From: Pseudomonadota bacterium
Lineage (GTDB): Bacteria > Pseudomonadota > Gammaproteobacteria > JAKAQQ01
Assembly (NCBI GenBank): GCA_021798115.1
Contig: JAJZYM010000006.1
Coordinates: 26,627-90,626 of the forward strand
DNA: 64,000 nt
Reading direction: 5' to 3'
In this document: piece by piece, positions 51,990-63,873 of the stretch
Position numbering within the stretch: position 1 is the stretch's first letter
Layout of the letters: the number at the start of each line of letters is the position of its first letter
Position numbers and translations under genes: made by a program
The notes under the pieces: model-generated
Databases searched by the model: none
What the model was told of the DNA's origin: nothing
Seen by the model: the letters and a program-made list of their open reading frames with translations, nothing else

Positions 51990-52229
51990 TCAAGGTGAGC
52001 CGGGGCCTTTGACGGAAGGAGGGAGCGTCTCGCCCTGCGCCTCTCCGCCGGGCGGAGCGATCCGATCGGGATCCCAGGGCGATCCGGTCCGGGCCTCGAT
52101 GAACTCGCGAATCATCCGCCGCACGACCTGAGAGGGCGTCATATCCTCACGCCGACACAGATTTTCGAAAACCGCTTTCTTTCGCGGGTCGATGAGGACG
52201 GTCAGGCGGGCCACACGTTGCTCGGGCAT
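51990..52229 (-). CDS. Ribbon-helix-helix protein divergent from the hyf operon
   Basis: 79 residues: ARLTVLIDPRKKAVFENLCR then MTPSQVVRRMIREFIEARTG, a CopG/Arc-type DNA-binding fold, followed by a Pro/Gly tail. ATG at 52229 after GAGGATT. It shares a 136-base AT-rich gap with hyfB, so it may regulate the hyf genes; no toxin partner is adjacent. Confidence 0.72.
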   Translation of the reverse strand: MPEQRVARLTVLIDPRKKAVFENLCRREDMTPSQVVRRMIREFIEARTGSPWDPDRIAPPGGEAQGETLPPSVKGPGSP

Positions 52230-52365: not shown

Positions 52366-54357
52366 ATGACAAGCATCGCCCTCCTCGTGGCGACCTTCTG
52401 GCTCGTTCTCGGCGTTCTCGCTCTCCTGCAACCCCACAGCATGAGGTTGGCACGCACGGTCCACGTTCCGGGGGCCGTGGCGGGGCTGGTCCTCGCCCTG
52501 GCGTCCGTCGACTCCACTCTCCACTCGCTGCCCGCAGTGATCGTCCACCTCCCGGGTCCGGCGGGGTTCGAGCTTCTGTTTCGCGCCGGACCTCTCGCTT
52601 GCGTGTTCCTTGCGCTGCTCGGTGTGGCGGTCTTCGCGATCTCGATTTTCGCCCGCGGCTATTTCCGCCCGGGTGAGGGCACACCCCCCGGCGTCCTCAG
52701 TTTTGCCTACCACCTTTTCCTCGCGTCTCTCACCGTGGTCCTGCTGGCCCACGATGCGCTCACGTTCATGGCGTCCTGGGAGCTCATGACCCTCGGATCC
52801 TACGCCCTCGTCTTGAGCGAACACAACCGCGAAGACATCCGCCGGGCCGCCCTGATCTACCTGGTCATGGCCCAGGTGAGCGCCCTGCTTCTTTTGATCG
52901 CCTTCGGCATCCTCTCCCACGGAGGGGCGATCCTCGACTTCACCGCGATGCGCAGCGATCCCCCCGGGGCTCTTGGGACGAGCCTCGTTTTTCTTTGCGC
53001 GTTGGGGGGATTCGGGGCCAAAGCCGGCCTCCTGCCCGCCCACGTGTGGCTGCCCGAAGCTCATCCCGCCGCCCCCTCGCCCGTCTCGGCCCTCATGAGC
53101 GGTGTGATGCTCGAAGTCGCCCTCTACGGCCTCATGCGTTTCGTCGTCATTCTGCGTCCTGAACTCGTGCCCTGGTGGGGGGCCGCCATCCTCGCCCTCG
53201 GAACGGCAAGCGGTCTTTACGGCGCCCTTTACGCCACGGCCCAGAGCGACGTCAAACGCCTGCTCGCCTATTCGTCGATCGAGAACATCGGGCTCATCGC
53301 CACCGCCTTCGGCCTCGCGCTGCTCTTTGCGAGCGCCCAAGAGATGACCCTCGCCGCCTTCGCCTTCACGGCATGTCTCTACCTCTGTCTCAATCACACG
53401 GCCGGGAAAAGCCTGCTTTTCCTCGCGACGGGGTCGGTGCTTCACGCGACGGGCGAGCGCAATCTCGGGCAGCTCGGAGGTCTTCTGCCGCGCATGCCGT
53501 GGGTCGGCATCCCGGCCCTCGTCGGCGCTGCCGCGCTCGCCGGCGTCCCTCCCCTGGGAGGGTTCGTCGCCGAATGGATGCTTCTCCAAAGCTGGCTCAC
53601 GACACCCCGTTTCTTCGCCACGCCTCTCGATCTCCTTCTGCCGCTCGCCGCGGCGATCTTCGTGCTCACCGCTGCTCTTGCCGCCTACGTCATGATCAAG
53701 TTCTACGCCGTGGCGTTTCTCGGGCGACCGCGCGAGAGTCGGCTCCTCAGCGCCCACGACGCGGGTCCGAGCGAGCGGATGGGACTCGTGTCTCTCGCCC
53801 TGGCGGCCCTCGCCCTCGGCCTCCTTCCGGGAGCGGTCGCCGGGTTTTTATCGAGCGCGGTCGCGCGCCTGTTCGGGCCCCTTCCGCCCGGCGCGACCGC
53901 CGCACCCGGGGTGGCGGTCTTCATGCCGAGCCGAGTGACCTACGCCCCTCTTCCCCTCGTGCTGGGCGCGGGGGTGCTCCTCGCCCTCTTCATCCTCGGC
54001 CGACGACTCCGTGCGACACGGCGGACCGCGACCAGAGCGGCGCTCTGGTCTTGCGGGGAAGGCCCCGTCGGACCACGCGCCCAGGACACGAGCGCCGGAT
54101 TCGGGGAGCCGATCCGTCGTGTCTTCGCCTTCGTCTTCGCCGTCGAAGAACAGTTTCCCCGACCTGCGGATCCGTATCCCCACTACCGGATCCGGTTGCG
54201 GGACCGCTTCGAGGTCCTCCTCTACGCCCCGCTTCCCGCTCTCGTCGGACGCCTCTCGGCGCTGGCCGCGCGTCTTCAGCGGGGACGACTCGCCGTCTAT
54301 CTCGCGATCACCTTCGTCACCCTCGCCCTCATCCTGATCGGCCTTCGCTGGACATGA
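52366..54357 (+). CDS. hyfB: HyfB-like antiporter-type membrane subunit
   Basis: 663 residues, about 16 membrane segments. This NuoL/M/N-like subunit contains the Proton_antipo_M pattern: FMASWELMTLGSYALVLSEH, KAGLLPAHVWLPEAHPAAPS and SDVKRLLAYSSIENIGLIAT, with conserved Lys and His of the proton path. The C-terminal ALWSCGEGPVGPRAQDTSAG is HyfB/HycC-specific. It is the first gene of a six-gene operon with 4-base overlaps. Confidence 0.9.
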   Translation: MTSIALLVATFWLVLGVLALLQPHSMRLARTVHVPGAVAGLVLALASVDSTLHSLPAVIVHLPGPAGFELLFRAGPLACVFLALLGVAVFAISIFARGYFRPGEGTPPGVLSFAYHLFLASLTVVLLAHDALTFMASWELMTLGSYALVLSEHNREDIRRAALIYLVMAQVSALLLLIAFGILSHGGAILDFTAMRSDPPGALGTSLVFLCALGGFGAKAGLLPAHVWLPEAHPAAPSPVSALMSGVMLEVALYGLMRFVVILRPELVPWWGAAILALGTASGLYGALYATAQSDVKRLLAYSSIENIGLIATAFGLALLFASAQEMTLAAFAFTACLYLCLNHTAGKSLLFLATGSVLHATGERNLGQLGGLLPRMPWVGIPALVGAAALAGVPPLGGFVAEWMLLQSWLTTPRFFATPLDLLLPLAAAIFVLTAALAAYVMIKFYAVAFLGRPRESRLLSAHDAGPSERMGLVSLALAALALGLLPGAVAGFLSSAVARLFGPLPPGATAAPGVAVFMPSRVTYAPLPLVLGAGVLLALFILGRRLRATRRTATRAALWSCGEGPVGPRAQDTSAGFGEPIRRVFAFVFAVEEQFPRPADPYPHYRIRLRDRFEVLLYAPLPALVGRLSALAARLQRGRLAVYLAITFVTLALILIGLRWT

Positions 54358-55310
54358 CCGCGCCCCTCGTCCGCCTTGCCCTCGGGATCGTCGAGACGGC
54401 CGTCCCCGTCGCCGCCGCCCCTCTGTGGCTCGGCTGGATCGGCCAGTGCCGGGCGTGGCTCCTCAACCGACGCGGGCCGGGCGTTCTTCAGCCCTACCGG
54501 GACCTCCGCAAACTCTTCCTCAAAGCGCCCCTCGTTCCCGAGGGTGCGGGGGTTCTCTTCCGGATCAACCCCGCGCTGCAATGGACGCTCGGGGTTCTGG
54601 CGCTCGGTCTGATCCCGTTCTGCAGCGCCGTCCCACTCCTGGCGCAGGACAGCGACGTCATCGTGCTCACCGGGATCCTCGCCACCGCCCGCTTCGTCTC
54701 TGTTCTCGCGGCCGGTGACCTCGGGACGGCGTTTGGCGGCCTGGGCGTGCGCCGCACCCTGCTCGTGGGATCGCTCGCCGAGCCCGCGCTCCTTCTCGCC
54801 CTCATGACCGCGGCGCTCGCCGCGGGAACGACCTCGCTGGCCGGCATCGCCCGGACCTTCACCGTGCACCCCCTGGTCCTCGATCCGAGCCTCGCGTTCG
54901 CCGCCGCGGCGTTCGCGCTCGTGCTCGTCGCCGAAAACGCCCGTCTGCCGGTGGACAACCCCGCGACTCATCTCGAACTCACGATGATCCACGAGGCGCT
55001 CGTCCTGGAATACGCGGGGGCGGATCTTGCGCTCCTCGAATGGGCGGGAGCGATCAAACTTCTGGTCTTCGCTCTTCTCGGACTCGTGCTCTTCGCCCCG
55101 TGGACGCTCCCCGGCGAAGCGACGGGCCCGCTCGCCGTGCTGCGTGCGTTCCTCCTGAGCGGAGGTCTCATTGCCGCCTCGGGGGCGCTTCTCGCCATCG
55201 TCGAGACGGCGAGCGCCAAGCTGCGTCTCTTCCGCGTCCCCGCGTTTCTCACGACCGCGTTTCTCGTGGCGACGCTCGGTCTTCTCGTCCGCCTCGTTTC
55301 CGGGATCTGA
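54354..55310 (+). CDS. hyfC: HyfC-like NuoH-type membrane subunit
   Basis: 318 residues, about eight membrane segments. GPGVLQPYRDLRKLFLK is the diagnostic start of HyfC/HycD/NuoH and VAENARLPVDNPATHLELTM the conserved quinone-proximal loop. It anchors the peripheral arm. ATG overlaps the hyfB stop. Confidence 0.93.
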   Translation: MTAPLVRLALGIVETAVPVAAAPLWLGWIGQCRAWLLNRRGPGVLQPYRDLRKLFLKAPLVPEGAGVLFRINPALQWTLGVLALGLIPFCSAVPLLAQDSDVIVLTGILATARFVSVLAAGDLGTAFGGLGVRRTLLVGSLAEPALLLALMTAALAAGTTSLAGIARTFTVHPLVLDPSLAFAAAAFALVLVAENARLPVDNPATHLELTMIHEALVLEYAGADLALLEWAGAIKLLVFALLGLVLFAPWTLPGEATGPLAVLRAFLLSGGLIAASGALLAIVETASAKLRLFRVPAFLTTAFLVATLGLLVRLVSGI

Positions 55311-55313
55311 CCC

Positions 55314-55955
55314 ATGCTCCCCGCTCTGATCGATTTCGACGCCGCTCTTCTCCTTCTCGTCGTCTTCGCCATGCTGGGCCAACGTCGGGTCGGCACCCTG
55401 ATCAATCTTTTTGCCCTCGAGGGCATGCTGCTCGCCGCGGCGAGCGTGCTCGAGGGACTCGTGCAAGCCCGTCCGGAGCTCGAGGAGGCGGCGCTGCTCA
55501 CCCTCGTCCTCAAGGGGCTCGTGCTTCCGTGGCTTCTCCACCGTATGCGGCGCGTCCTCTCCGTCCGTTGGGACGACGAATCCCCCGCCCACTCGGTGGG
55601 CATTCATCTCCTGGGCCTGGCGGTCGTGGTCGCGGCGTTCGCCGAGGCCGCGCCGCTCGTGGCCGGCGGGGCGGGGCGCGATCTCGCGATGGCGCTCGCG
55701 GTGGTGGGACTCGCGCTCCTCATGATGATCACGCGCCGCACCGCCCTCGCCCAGGTGGTGGGATTTCTCACGCTCGAGAACGGGCTCTTCCTGGCCGCGG
55801 CAAGCGCGACGGGGGGCATGCCGTTGCTCGTCGAGCTCGGGATCGCCTTCGACGTCCTCGTCGTGACCGTGATCTTTGCCGTCTTCTTCCTTCACCTTCA
55901 ACGGCGATTCGACAGTCTCGACCTCGCCCGACTGGAAACCCTGCGCGAAGAATGA
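55314..55955 (+). CDS. hyfE: HyfE-like membrane subunit
   Basis: 213 residues, six or more membrane segments. The pattern AMLGQRRVGTLINLFALEGM and GFLTLENGLFLAAASATGG matches HyfE (NuoK-like C-terminal part). It is overlapped by hyfF. Confidence 0.87.
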   Translation: MLPALIDFDAALLLLVVFAMLGQRRVGTLINLFALEGMLLAAASVLEGLVQARPELEEAALLTLVLKGLVLPWLLHRMRRVLSVRWDDESPAHSVGIHLLGLAVVVAAFAEAAPLVAGGAGRDLAMALAVVGLALLMMITRRTALAQVVGFLTLENGLFLAAASATGGMPLLVELGIAFDVLVVTVIFAVFFLHLQRRFDSLDLARLETLREE

Positions 55956-57403
55956 TCACCCTCTATCTCCTCCTCGTGCTTTTCCCGCTCCCGGCGGCCA
56001 TCGTTCTGGGATTTCTGCGCGGAGCGCGGAGCATCCTCACCGTCAACGCCGCCGTGAGTCTTCTCATGCTCGGCCTCGGGACGGGTTTTGCCCTTTCGGC
56101 GCACGGAGTCTTGGGCGACGGGTTCGTTCTCGCCGACGCCTTCGCGCGCCTTCTCCTCACGATCTCGCTCCTTGTGGGCGCCGCGTCCGCCGTCTTCGCC
56201 GTCCCCTACTTCCTCGGGCGCGTCGCCCGCGGTCATCTCCCCGCCCGCCGCGTGCGTCTTTTCGGCGTCCTCTATCCGATTTTTCTCGATACGGTCATCG
56301 TGGCCCTCACCAGCAACAATCTGGGCGTGCTCTGGATCGCCCTCGAGGCCTCGACGCTCGCGACGGTCTTCATGGTCTCGCTCGAACGCAGCCCGGGCGG
56401 CATCGAGGCGGCGTGGAAATATCTCATCCTCTGCGGCGTCGGCCTGGCGCTCGCGCTCTTCGGCACGGTCCTCGTCGATCTCGCGGCGGCCCCGCTGCAC
56501 CTCCCCGCCGGAGAGCGGCTCCTCTGGAGCGTGCTGTCCCACGCCCGCGGGGCGCTCGCCCCGGGGGCCATCACGACCGCCTTCGCTTTTCTCCTCGTCG
56601 GTTACGGCACGAAGGCCGGGCTCGTCCCGATCCACCACTGGCTTCCCGACGCCCACGCCCAGGGGCCCGCCCCGGTCTCGGCCGTGCTCTCGGGCATCCT
56701 GCTCAACGTCGCTCTCGACCCGGTGGTGCGCGCCGAAGCGCTTGCGGAGGGAGCGCTCCACTCGAACCTCCCGGGGCTCTTCCTCGTCGGCTTCGGAATG
56801 GCGTCCGTGATCGTCGCGGCCCTTCTTCTCTGGAGGCAGTACGACCTCAAACGGTTGTGGGCCTACTCCTCGATCGAACACATGGGCCTCGCCGCCCTGG
56901 GCTTCGGGATCGGAACGCCCCTCGCCGTGCTGGGAGCCACACTCGAAATGAGCGTCCACGCGCTGAGTAAATCCTCCCTCTTCTTTACGACCGGGGCCGT
57001 GAGCCAGAGCCACGGAACCCAGGACGTCCGCGCAATCCACGGCCTTCTGGCACGAAGACCCCTTCAGGGCGTGGCGCTCCTCCTCGGCGGCTGGGCGATT
57101 CTCGGCCTTCCCCCGTGCGGAACGTTCATCAGCGAATTGCTGATCGTGCTCGCCGCGGTCCACCTCTCGCCCCTCTTGGCGCTCGTTCTTCTCGGCGCGC
57201 TCCTCACCGCCTTCGCCGCCATCGCCGGCCGTCTTCAGGAGGTCCTCTGGGGCGGCGGCGGGCGGCGGCGGCCGGAACGGGTACTCGCGCTCGTTCCGGT
57301 CTTTGCGTCCCTCGCCCTCGTCCTTCTCCTGGGTGTCACGCTTCCTCCTCCCTTCGCCTCGTGGTACCGGACGACGGTTCCGCTTCTCGGGTTGCGTCCG
57401 TGA
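55952..57403 (+). CDS. hyfF: HyfF-like antiporter-type membrane subunit
   Basis: 483 residues, about 14 membrane segments. TSNNLGVLWIALEASTLATV, GTKAGLVPIHHWLPDAHAQG and YDLKRLWAYSSIEHMGLAAL are the HyfF/NuoN-type proton-channel features, and SVHALSKSSLFFTTGAVSQ is also present. It is the second antiporter-like subunit; HyfD, the third in E. coli, is absent. Confidence 0.92.
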   Translation: MITLYLLLVLFPLPAAIVLGFLRGARSILTVNAAVSLLMLGLGTGFALSAHGVLGDGFVLADAFARLLLTISLLVGAASAVFAVPYFLGRVARGHLPARRVRLFGVLYPIFLDTVIVALTSNNLGVLWIALEASTLATVFMVSLERSPGGIEAAWKYLILCGVGLALALFGTVLVDLAAAPLHLPAGERLLWSVLSHARGALAPGAITTAFAFLLVGYGTKAGLVPIHHWLPDAHAQGPAPVSAVLSGILLNVALDPVVRAEALAEGALHSNLPGLFLVGFGMASVIVAALLLWRQYDLKRLWAYSSIEHMGLAALGFGIGTPLAVLGATLEMSVHALSKSSLFFTTGAVSQSHGTQDVRAIHGLLARRPLQGVALLLGGWAILGLPPCGTFISELLIVLAAVHLSPLLALVLLGALLTAFAAIAGRLQEVLWGGGGRRRPERVLALVPVFASLALVLLLGVTLPPPFASWYRTTVPLLGLRP

Positions 57404-58854
57404 GCCCCCTCGGGCCCAGCGCGCCCGCCACGCTCACGGCGGAACCGTTGAGGGCGGAAGAACTGCCCGCAAGAGCGGCCGCCGTACGAGATTCCGGCGG
57501 ACGGCTCGTGAGTCTCTGGATCGAGGACGACGAACCCGCACAACCCCGCCTCTGCGTGGTCTTGGCCGACGCCGCCTCGGCGCTGGGCTTCCTCGAGATC
57601 GCCCTCCCCGACCCCTCCGTCCGCTACCCCTCCCTCGCCGGCATCTTCCCCGCGAGCGGGCGGCTTGAACGCTCGGCGCGCGACCTCTGTGGCGTGGCGG
57701 CCGAGGGCGGCGATCCGCGCCCCTGGCTACTCCACCCCGCCGAACCCTACCCGTTCGTGACCGTGGGTGGCGAAGGGGTGCACGAAATCCCCGTCGGGCC
57801 CGTCCACGCGGGCGTCATCGAGTCCGGTCACTTCCATCTGAGCGTCGTCGGCGAGCACGTCCTGCGTCTCGAAGAGCGGCTGGGCTACAAGCACCGCGGG
57901 ATCACCGGGCTCGTCCGCGGCCGCGATCTCGCCTCGGGAGCCCCCCTGATCGCCCGTCTCGCGGGAGACACGACGGTGGGCTACGCCTGGGCCTACGCGC
58001 AGGCGGCGGAAACGGCCCTCGGGCTCGAAGCGCCACCGCGCGGGCGGGCGCTTCGCGCCCTCGCCCTCGAACTCGAGCGTATCGCCAATCACCTCGGCGA
58101 TCTCGGCGCCCTCGGGACGGACGCCGGCTTCGCGTTCGGCGGCAGTCAATTCATGATCCTCAAGGAAGAGCTCCTGCGTCTCAAGCGTGAACTCTTCGGC
58201 CGCCGCTACCTCTTCGACCTCTTGCCCCCGGGTGGGGTGGCGTTCGATCTCGCTCCCGAGGCCGCTCGCCGCCTCGGGCGGACCCTCGAGACCCTCGCCC
58301 GCACGGTGGGCGAGCTCCGGGACCTCTACGACGACCACGCCGGACTCCGTGACCGTTTCCGCGGCACCGGGTGTGTCCCGCGCGAACTCGCCCTCCATCT
58401 CGGCCTCACGGGCCTTGCGGCACGAGCGAGCGGGATCGCCGAGGACCTCCGCGTCGCGCGGCCGTGGGGACCCTACGACGCTCTCCCCCTGGAGACCGCC
58501 GTGCGTCACGGAGGCGACGTTCTCGCCCGTGTCGAGATCCGTTTCGCCGAAATCGACACCTCCCTCGCGCTCCTGAGGACGCTCCTCGACTCTCTCCCGC
58601 CGGGACCGATCGCAAGCCCTCTTCCGGACACCCCGGTCCGGGAACGGGGGATCGGCTGGATCGAGGCCTGGCGGGGACCGGTTTTCGTGAGCGTACGGAT
58701 CGATCGGCGGGGTGCGATCCGCCACGTTCACTGCCACGATCCGTCGTGGGAAAACTGGCCGGCCGTCGAATACGCCACCGTGGGCGAAGTCGTCGCCGAT
58801 TTCCCGCTCATCAACAAATCGTTCAATCTCGCCTACAGCGCCGTCGATCTCTGA
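57400..58854 (+). CDS. hyfG: HyfG-like large subunit lacking the NiFe cysteines
   Basis: 484 residues: N-terminal NuoC-like part (GFLEIALPDPSVRYPSLAGI), then a NuoD/HycE-like part (PVHAGVIESGHFHLSVVGE, YKHRGITGLVRG, ALELERIANHLGDLGALG). In true group 4 hydrogenases RxCGxC and DPCxxC hold the NiFe site. Here they read RLAGDT (186-191) and FNLAYSA (475-481): the four Cys are A188, T191, A478 and A481. So no NiFe centre can form. This is the Ehr-type subunit. GTG start overlaps hyfF. Confidence 0.92.
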   Translation: MSPLGPSAPATLTAEPLRAEELPARAAAVRDSGGRLVSLWIEDDEPAQPRLCVVLADAASALGFLEIALPDPSVRYPSLAGIFPASGRLERSARDLCGVAAEGGDPRPWLLHPAEPYPFVTVGGEGVHEIPVGPVHAGVIESGHFHLSVVGEHVLRLEERLGYKHRGITGLVRGRDLASGAPLIARLAGDTTVGYAWAYAQAAETALGLEAPPRGRALRALALELERIANHLGDLGALGTDAGFAFGGSQFMILKEELLRLKRELFGRRYLFDLLPPGGVAFDLAPEAARRLGRTLETLARTVGELRDLYDDHAGLRDRFRGTGCVPRELALHLGLTGLAARASGIAEDLRVARPWGPYDALPLETAVRHGGDVLARVEIRFAEIDTSLALLRTLLDSLPPGPIASPLPDTPVRERGIGWIEAWRGPVFVSVRIDRRGAIRHVHCHDPSWENWPAVEYATVGEVVADFPLINKSFNLAYSAVDL

Positions 58855-58869
58855 CCCGGGGGGCCCTCT

Positions 58870-59382
58870 ATGGATCGCTTCTTCAAACGTCTCTTCCGCA
58901 CCGGACTCGTCCGCGAACGCCCGCCCCCGCCCGCGCGCGGGGTCGTCGACGCACCGGCCCTGCCTCGCGCCTTTCGTCGCTCCCTCACGCTCCGCCACGT
59001 GGATACGGGCTCCTGCAACGGCTGCGAACTCGAGCTTCATGCCGCCCAGAACGCCCACCACAATCTTGCCGCCCTCGGGATCCGTTTCGCCGCAAGCCCC
59101 CGCCACAGCGATGTCCTCGTCGTCACCGGACCCGTCGTGCACAACATGGAGAAGGCTCTCATGGCGACGCACACCGCCATGGCGGAGCCGAAACGCGTGG
59201 TCGCCCTCGGGGACTGCGCCTGCGGGCGCGGACCGTTCGCCGCCTCGCCCGCCTGCCGTGGGTCGCTCGACCAGGTCCTCCGCGTCGACGCGCGGATCGC
59301 GGGCTGCCCGCCGCCGCCGGAGGCCATCGTCGCCGGACTACGGGCTCTGGCGGGCACGGAGGATCAAGGCCGGTCTGAATAA
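58870..59382 (+). CDS. hyfI: HyfI-like small iron-sulfur subunit
   Basis: 170 residues, NuoB/HycG-like. The four ligands of the proximal 4Fe-4S cluster are intact: C49 and C52 (DTGSCNGCELELHAA), C116 (ALGDCACG) and C146 (IAGCPPPP). It therefore can carry electrons even though the partner large subunit has no NiFe. No ferredoxin-like HyfA/HyfH follows. Confidence 0.93.
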   Translation: MDRFFKRLFRTGLVRERPPPPARGVVDAPALPRAFRRSLTLRHVDTGSCNGCELELHAAQNAHHNLAALGIRFAASPRHSDVLVVTGPVVHNMEKALMATHTAMAEPKRVVALGDCACGRGPFAASPACRGSLDQVLRVDARIAGCPPPPEAIVAGLRALAGTEDQGRSE

Positions 59383-60367: not shown

Positions 60368-60889
60368 TCAGGGTTTCACATCACAACAACTCCCCTTGAC
60401 GACTTCACGGGCGTTCCAGAAAAGTGACCCGAGAAGTATGAGTGCGGAGATTGCAAAGAACAGCCATTCATGGGTCGCGAGAAACCCCTGAAACGCGCCC
60501 CCGGCTCCGCCCGCAAGGAGCGGGATCCAGCCCGCCAGGAAACTGAAGGCGATGGGCAGAATCGGGGAACAGCAGAGGAGCGGGGTCACAAGACTGATGA
60601 CGAGGCCACCCGTGGCCCCTCCGACAGCGCCCCGCATCCGGTATCCCCGCCGCAGAAGATAGACGGTCATCGGGACCAGGAGGCCGAGGAGGATGGCCAG
60701 AAGCACCGACCAGCCGACGAGTTGGGGCGTCGCAAAGGCCAGTGCCTGAAGGCCAATCCGGCCACCGGTGAAGGTGGCCGGCAAGGTGATGAGATAGATG
60801 CAAAGAAAAATGACGAAACTCAAGACGCCGATGACCCAGGACCCTTTGGATGCAAAGACTTCACGGAGCGCCAGGCCGAGGTTTTTCAT
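60368..60889 (-). CDS. Six-segment membrane protein with vicinal cysteine pairs
   Basis: 173 residues, about six membrane helices. Two adjacent Cys pairs: TPLLCCSPILP in helix 4-5 and GSCCDVKP at the C-terminus. Vicinal Cys in membrane helices occur in MerT/MerC-type mercury transporters, so a metal role is possible. It follows the TlpA-like gene by 3 bases. No family recognised with certainty. Confidence 0.68.
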   Translation of the reverse strand: MKNLGLALREVFASKGSWVIGVLSFVIFLCIYLITLPATFTGGRIGLQALAFATPQLVGWSVLLAILLGLLVPMTVYLLRRGYRMRGAVGGATGGLVISLVTPLLCCSPILPIAFSFLAGWIPLLAGGAGGAFQGFLATHEWLFFAISALILLGSLFWNAREVVKGSCCDVKP

Positions 60890-60892
60890 GCG

Positions 60893-61417
60893 CTAGCTCC
60901 GGGCGAAATCCAGAATCATCCGGAGATGGGTGGAGGGAGCGCTCGAGACCCGTTCGATCGTGCCATCCGGACGGATGAGATAGAAAATGTCCGGATAGGA
61001 CTCGGAGTTATAGGCCGCGGCCGTGGCACGGGTCGCACGGCCGACGGTCCAGTTCGGCGTGTGCGCGGCCGCCCGCGCGTAGCGGTTCATCAATGACTGG
61101 AGGCTCGGACCGGAGTAACCCCCGTTCCGGTAGTTCTCGAGGATGACGAGGTGCAGATGCTCGGCGGCAAATCGCGGCTCGTCGCGAGCGAGGAGCGGGA
61201 GCCCCGCCTGACAGCTCGGGCACCAGGTCGAAAAGAGCCACAGCATCACCTTCTGCCCGTGAAAGGAGGCGAGGGATACCTTCCGCCCATGCGAGAGGAA
61301 AACGGTGGCGGGAGCCTGGGTCCCGACCCTGGGATTGGCGTAGGCCGGAAGCAGGGCGCCCGCGGCGAAGACACCGCTCAGGGCGATGACAGGGAGAACA
61401 CGATTCAATCGGAACAT
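60893..61417 (-). CDS. TlpA-like periplasmic thiol-disulfide protein
   Basis: 174 residues. Signal peptide (VLPVIALSGVFAAGALLPAY), then a thioredoxin fold with LWLFSTWCPSCQAGLPLL (active site WCPSC). The C-terminal part (SESYPDIFYLIRPDG) has the cis-Pro strand. ATG at 61417 follows GGAGGTGGCC. It is the first gene of a two-gene unit behind a 19-base-spacer promoter. Confidence 0.85.
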   Translation of the reverse strand: MFRLNRVLPVIALSGVFAAGALLPAYANPRVGTQAPATVFLSHGRKVSLASFHGQKVMLWLFSTWCPSCQAGLPLLARDEPRFAAEHLHLVILENYRNGGYSGPSLQSLMNRYARAAAHTPNWTVGRATRATAAAYNSESYPDIFYLIRPDGTIERVSSAPSTHLRMILDFARS

Positions 61418-61491
61418 GGCCACCTCCACAAGTCAGGTTTGCGAACACCACAAGATCCGCTGCAGCCAACATCGTCCGCAGCAGGTCACTA

Positions 61492-61567: not shown

Positions 61568-63873
<2,306 letters not shown>

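Follow-up and report, generated by a model that had tools for sequence, protein, structure and literature searches.

Organization of the hyf operon

The subject of this analysis is a hydrogenase-4-like operon, hyfBCEFGI, in a 64,000-nucleotide stretch (here, the window) of contig JAJZYM010000006.1 from a gammaproteobacterial genome (GCA_021798115.1). Its six genes lie on the + strand, overlap or nearly adjoin one another, and extend from 52366 to 59382; an earlier reading, made from the sequence alone, had covered the last two. The first, hyfB (52366..54357), encodes an antiporter-like (NuoL/M-like) subunit of 663 amino acids (NCBIfam PRK06521, E = 2.8e-193; Pfam Proton_antipo_M). It is followed by hyfC (54354..55310), encoding a NuoH/HycD-like membrane subunit of 318 amino acids (Pfam NADHdh, E = 2.6e-29) whose best solved relative is HycD (7z0s_D), and by hyfE (55314..55955), encoding a small membrane subunit of 213 amino acids (NCBIfam hydrogenase 4 membrane subunit, E = 1.3e-17). 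A second antiporter-like subunit, of 483 amino acids, is encoded by hyfF (55952..57403; NCBIfam PRK06458, E = 3.8e-143). The large subunit gene, hyfG (57400..58854), starts with a GTG codon at 57400, four bases ahead of the end of hyfF, and its product of 484 amino acids combines a NuoC-like N-terminal part with a NuoD/HycE-like domain (Pfam Complex1_49kDa, E = 1.5e-35; top phmmer match, HycE 7z0s_E, E = 9.9e-50). The operon ends with hyfI (58870..59382), encoding a NuoB/HycG-like small subunit of 170 amino acids with one [4Fe-4S] site (Pfam Oxidored_q6, E = 1.8e-26). Compared with E. coli hyf, the operon is missing hyfA, hyfD, hyfH, and hyfJ, and it contains no HycI-type gene.

Overall, the encoded complex is almost certainly an energy-converting hydrogenase-related (Ehr) complex and not a hydrogenase. 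The sequence-only reading had come to the same classification, with which the homology of the large subunit, the absent CxxC motifs, the NuoB-like HyfI, the membrane subunits, and the placement in a single Cys-less clade all agree. The automatic “hydrogenase 4” annotation is misleading for this operon.

The replaced NiFe site of HyfG

In two independent alignments, A188, T191, A478, and A481 of HyfG align with the four NiFe-ligand cysteines of HycE, as the sequence-only reading had assigned them; HycE has RVCGIC and DPCYSC where the window HyfG has RLAGDT and NLAYSA. That reading had also described the site as erased. The cysteines are indeed lost, but the term is imprecise, since their positions hold a conserved alternative motif. 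In the HyfG proteins of Ehr clades A and B (described below), R-x-S-G-D-[ST]-T and N-K-S-x-N-x-S-Y-S-G-x-D surround the old ligand positions, and the same motif occurs in Ehr members from elsewhere in the phylum. Residues at the site were counted in an alignment of 53 Ehr HyfG sequences (51 for the third and fourth Cys positions). The first Cys position (codon A188, 57961..57963, + strand) is Ser in 49/53 relatives, and the second (T191, 57970..57972, +) is Ser or Thr in 39/53; the third (A478, 58831..58833, +) is Ser in 39/51 and the fourth (A481, 58840..58842, +) is Gly in 48/51. The window HyfG departs from this pattern in having Ala at three of the four positions; Ser or Gly is usual there among its relatives. 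With this variant included, the conserved pocket reads S/A-G-D-S/T ... S/A-Y-S-G/A. Copies of HyfG that are 98% identical (from another metagenome-assembled genome [MAG]) and 74% identical (from another assembly) have the same site residues, and the NiFe site is missing in the 53 Ehr relatives, which excludes chance, assembly error, and sequencing error as explanations. A lone Cys at the first position is found in the Ehr HyfG of three loci (RICGDS in L046, RICADS in L047, and RSCGDS in L090) and may represent a relic or a reversion.

Other residues of the pocket are also informative. E141 of HyfG (codon 57820..57822, + strand) aligns with Glu21 of MbhL, which is the proton donor in that protein (PMC11228991), and is invariant in 53/53 Ehr sequences. 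The quinone ligands of complex I, His38 and Tyr87, correspond to I140 and G189 in the window HyfG; the His38 position is Ile in 42/53 and the Tyr87 position Gly in 50/53 Ehr relatives. The invariant Glu, the replaced quinone ligands, and the conserved replacement motif together suggest a polar, conserved pocket that looks hydrogenase derived and has neither a known cofactor nor a known ligand set. HyfG ends flush at ...SAVDL, as other Ehr proteins do, whereas HycE/HyfG proteins of true hydrogenases extend past the last Cys (DPCYSCTDR). An AlphaFold model of HyfG based on 13 sequences had a mean predicted local distance difference test (pLDDT) score of 68 and a pTM of 0.78, with pLDDT values of <50 at residues 108-168 and 452-484, and was poorest at the site. 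With this model, unreliable at the site, the top Foldseek match was HycE 7z0s_E (TM score of 0.79), followed by NuoCD.

HyfI and the antiporter-like subunits

When 10 Ehr HyfI sequences are aligned with E. coli HyfI, HycG, and NuoB, the four cluster cysteines of HyfI (C49, codon 59014..59016, + strand, with C52, C116, and C146) do not vary, in agreement with the retention claimed in the sequence-only reading. The first cluster Cys of NuoB is offset in such an alignment because of the difference between Cys-Cys and CxxC. By length comparison, HyfI is without the HycG-type C-terminal extension. The operon and its 1.5-kb flanks contain no CxxCxxCxxxC motif, either in the window or in the clade A and B loci examined, and the window complex is thus predicted to have a single iron-sulfur (FeS) cluster, that of HyfI, and no ferredoxin-type relay subunit. 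The NuoH-like HyfC is intact, and so are both antiporter-like subunits, as had been proposed: E139/K219/E403 of HyfB and E132/K221/E395 of HyfF correspond to E144/K234/E407 of NuoM in a residue alignment. A small qualification is that the Lys of transmembrane helix 8 (NuoM K265) is not retained, being E250 in HyfB and N252 in HyfF; E. coli HyfF likewise has Asn.

Phylogeny and two architectures

In a tree of HyfG based on 324 columns, with the site left out and published Nitrospira or Geobacter Ehr sequences not included, all 59 Ehr proteins fall on one branch (support, 98/95), apart from 10 HycE/HyfG-type hydrogenases; thus, the NiFe ligands were probably lost once. Long branches meet at the base of the tree, so that it is uncertain exactly where MBH and MBS stand with respect to Ehr. 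The window HyfG belongs to clade A (23 rows, 100/98), and a second copy from the same genome belongs to clade C (100/100). In clade C (contig C7 of the window genome and loci L072, L078, and L079), an N-terminal 2x[4Fe-4S] ferredoxin domain is fused to HyfI, and the gene order is C-E-F-G-I-B; the second Ehr operon of the window genome (contig C7 150126-152449; L020 7161-14499) has this order. The split between single-cluster (A/B) and ferredoxin-fused (C) forms and the replacement motif were not found in those parts of the published Ehr accounts that were consulted, which did not cover the 2013 founding paper (Marreiros et al., BBA), and we do not claim that they are new.

Several loci show further arrangements. 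L072 (related genome G006, contig C18) has clade C and clade D Ehr operons tail to tail, with a third Ehr elsewhere in that genome. Genes encoding DUF190 proteins accompany clade C/D operons in L078 (4360-4680) and L080 (14667-14990), and two genes for MutS-domain-V ATPases lie immediately upstream of hyfC in L078 (12792-16033). In one Gallionellaceae MAG, an additional gene, possibly of a mobile or phage type, stands between hyfF and hyfG (L009, 841-1689).

Selection, distribution, and genome content

The ratio of nonsynonymous to synonymous substitution rates (dN/dS) relative to the 74% relative is 0.14 to 0.29 in all six subunits. Selection is thus purifying, and the complex most likely serves a function in the cell. 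Each of the 9 genomes in the order to which the window belongs encodes one to three Ehr-type HyfG proteins, and Ehr-type HyfG was found in 52/370 genomes (~14%) of a sample of the class. Ehr has been reported, in the portion of the account consulted, from about half of Nitrospirales genomes (PMC12342949). Complex I is present alongside Ehr in 46 of the 52 genomes. Four loci from one family with small genomes of 1.0 to 1.9 Mb (L083, L084, L086, and L085) have Ehr but no canonical NuoD, and in L085, from a 1.0-Mb genome, the Ehr operon is broken, with hyfB, hyfC, and hyfE split.

Statements on the whole window genome (1.88 Mb, 97% complete) rest on family (profile) searches. The sole match to PF00374 (NiFe hydrogenase) is part of the second HyfG-like protein (C7:150926-152449), which is Cys-less too, with RISGVGS and SFGLTVAGCDR as its motifs. 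Three NuoD-like genes match PF00346; besides those of C7 and the window, there is a complex I nuoD on contig C34. A second, Cys-bearing HyfG, which the sequence-only reading had named as an observation that would speak against it, was therefore absent from the PF00374 and PF00346 matches. HypD is required for building the NiFe site, and no match to it was found in this genome. It is also no more common with Ehr, occurring in 24/52 Ehr-containing and 129/318 other genomes (P = 0.45).

Redox partners and gene neighborhoods

The search for co-occurring soluble redox partners that the sequence-only reading had suggested gave a suggestive result at the level of genomes and a negative one at the level of neighboring genes. 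The 2-oxoacid:ferredoxin oxidoreductase is more common in genomes with Ehr (36/52 versus 123/318, P = 6e-5), as it is when one genome per family is counted (16/22 versus 44/119, P = 0.002). It was found in 5/6 Ehr-containing genomes without canonical NuoD, a suggestive result that would fit a ferredoxin-driven pump replacing complex I. RuBisCO is not associated with Ehr (27/52 versus 156/318, P = 0.77) and is absent from the window's own genome. The window genome does have candidate ferredoxins.

Features that recur in the neighborhoods of 36 loci are limited to metG/apbC synteny (in Nitrosomonadales), regulators of the RHH or XRE kind, and an occasional SulP-family transporter gene, which is immediately upstream of hyfB in L006, L013, and L088, from different lineages. 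In the window, a gene for an RHH_9 (ribbon-helix-helix) regulator (51990..52229, − strand; Pfam PF19839, E = 8e-21) is divergent from hyfB and possibly regulates the operon. The same arrangement in L073 (15636-15827) and L090 (3575-3790) extends it to at least three clade A lineages, and L077 has a homologous open reading frame beside its operon. Clade B loci L069, L074, L076, L087, and L092 have an XRE regulator immediately upstream of hyfB. Downstream of the window operon are genes encoding an unassigned membrane protein (60368-60889) and a thioredoxin-like protein (60893-61429), followed by mercury resistance genes, in which a MerR-type regulator (61568-62227, −) is divergent from the mercuric reductase MerA with an HMA domain (62011-63873, +). 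The consulted parts of three papers on Gallionellaceae (PMC10734462, PMC8788666, and PMC3770913) give no account of such operons.

Proposed function and alternatives

We consider it probable, by a moderate margin, that hyfBCEFGI encodes a membrane ion pump that belongs to the complex I superfamily, is not a hydrogenase, and runs on electrons that a soluble donor passes via HyfI to an acceptor in HyfG; the redox-driven pumping posited in the sequence-only reading is credible to the same degree. A soluble one-electron carrier, either ferredoxin- or flavodoxin-like, would dock directly on HyfI, since the complex appears to have one FeS cluster and no MbhN equivalent. From the HyfI cluster, the electron would then pass to an acceptor occupying the former NiFe pocket of HyfG. 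The most plausible acceptor is a quinone, which would enter past HyfC. Protonation via E141 may alter the HyfG/HyfC interface, and this change would drive the movement of ions (H+ or possibly Na+) across HyfC, HyfF, and HyfB. The specific direction, from a soluble low-potential donor to quinone, is proposed more tentatively and falls short of an even chance. A 2x[4Fe-4S] domain is the usual docking site for ferredoxin, and its fusion to HyfI in sister clade C counts for the ferredoxin pool as the donor.

Several observations weigh against this proposal. None of the 36 loci has a conserved redox neighbor gene within up to ~10 kb on each side, and the 2-oxoacid:ferredoxin oxidoreductase is absent from the window's own genome. 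The co-occurrence result is one positive among three families tested, with a crude correction for kinship. HyfG has neither of the quinone ligands of complex I, and any two-electron acceptor would need to receive its electrons singly, given the lone cluster and the missing relay. A different account, which we regard as doubtful although less so than the alternatives discussed below, is that the clade A/B complexes form a minimal branch of their own within the superfamily, with one FeS cluster, in which the conserved polar pocket accepts some substrate that is neither H+/H2 nor a quinone bound in the canonical way and a reaction new to the superfamily drives pumping, with the clade C form in the same genome serving a different job.

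The same complex might also run in reverse, with an ion gradient forcing electrons uphill, out of quinol and onto a soluble carrier of low potential, for biosynthesis. Reverse electron flow is needed in iron- and sulfur-oxidizing lineages, from which many of the relatives come (e.g., Gallionellaceae), and complex I is usually co-present; however, the lack of any RuBisCO association and the occurrence of Ehr in small genomes lacking complex I make this direction unlikely. We consider equally unlikely a non-redox or merely redox-gated ion antiporter or pH homeostasis device with an Mrp-like membrane part and a vestigial or regulatory arm. The intact antiporter subunits, the one cluster without a relay, and the missing catalytic metal would suit such a device, but HyfG and HyfI are under purifying selection, and a vestigial arm would have no need of a pocket motif and an E141 conserved across divergent members. 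Coupling to the neighboring SulP transporter for uptake of inorganic carbon or another anion, similar in idea to the cyanobacterial NDH-1MS, is very improbable: the transporter gene adjoins hyfB in only 3/36 loci and is not present in the window, no carbonic anhydrase neighbor was seen, and RuBisCO, as noted, is not associated.

Decay of the operon into a nonfunctional remnant is about as improbable. The broken relative in L085 and the Ala residues of the window copy where others have Ser would be expected of decay, but the six open reading frames are intact and overlapping, all subunits have low dN/dS values, and Ehr-type HyfG is kept in 9/9 genomes of the order. Least probable of all, to the point of being negligible, is an active group 4 [NiFe] hydrogenase that relies on atypical ligands. 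HyfG is nearest to HycE overall in both sequence and fold, but a group 4 hydrogenase was rejected because RxCGxC/DPCxxC, the C-terminal processing extension, and HypD are all lacking; furthermore, the consulted part of a study of Nitrospira moscoviensis indicates that Ehr expression is not raised by H2 there (PMC12342949). The claim that the complex neither makes nor uses hydrogen is thus well supported, with the lack of a Cys-bearing HyfG and the single Cys-less clade added to these absences.

Comparison with known systems

Ehr complexes have been reported from Nitrospira, Sulfobacillus, Methylacidiphilum, and Saganbacteria, and in the portions of those reports consulted they are Cys-less relatives of group 4 hydrogenases of unknown function (PMC10284858, PMC4378227, PMC6688271, PMC6349859, and PMC12342949). 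They resemble the window complex in having a HycE/NuoD-like large subunit without NiFe motifs and NuoB-, NuoH-, and antiporter-like subunits, and differ from it in the residues at the old ligand positions, where the window copy has its three Ala. The window operon is a further Ehr in a proteobacterial order with small genomes, and its genome bears two architecturally different forms of the complex. The replacement motif, the kept proton-donor Glu, and the split between one-cluster and ferredoxin-fused forms provide concrete residues and subunits for testing.

Apart from the missing genes, gene order is the same as in E. coli formate hydrogenlyase and hydrogenase-4 (Hyc and Hyf). The window operon differs from these in having no HyfA, HyfD, HyfH, HyfJ, or HycI-type genes, no NiFe ligands, and no HyfG/HyfI C-terminal extensions; the ferredoxin-like subunits HycB/HyfA and HycF/HyfH of formate hydrogenlyase have no counterpart, as judged by CxxCxxCxxxC motifs in the operon plus 1.5 kb. 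Pyrococcus MBH and MBS belong to the same superfamily. The proton-donor Glu is common to MbhL and HyfG, and MBS is likewise without an intact set of NiFe ligands. The docking subunit for ferredoxin in MBH is MbhN, and electrons there pass three clusters in MbhN and MbhJ (PMC11228991), whereas the window operon has no MbhN equivalent. The NuoI-like ferredoxin-docking subunit of MBS/MBX is similarly missing; among the Ehr operons, only those of clade C have it, in fused form. With complex I, the window complex shares homologues of NuoC, NuoD, NuoB, NuoH, NuoL, and NuoM; it differs in having no NADH module, NuoI, His38, or Tyr87, and a separate complex I NuoD is encoded on contig C34 of the same genome.

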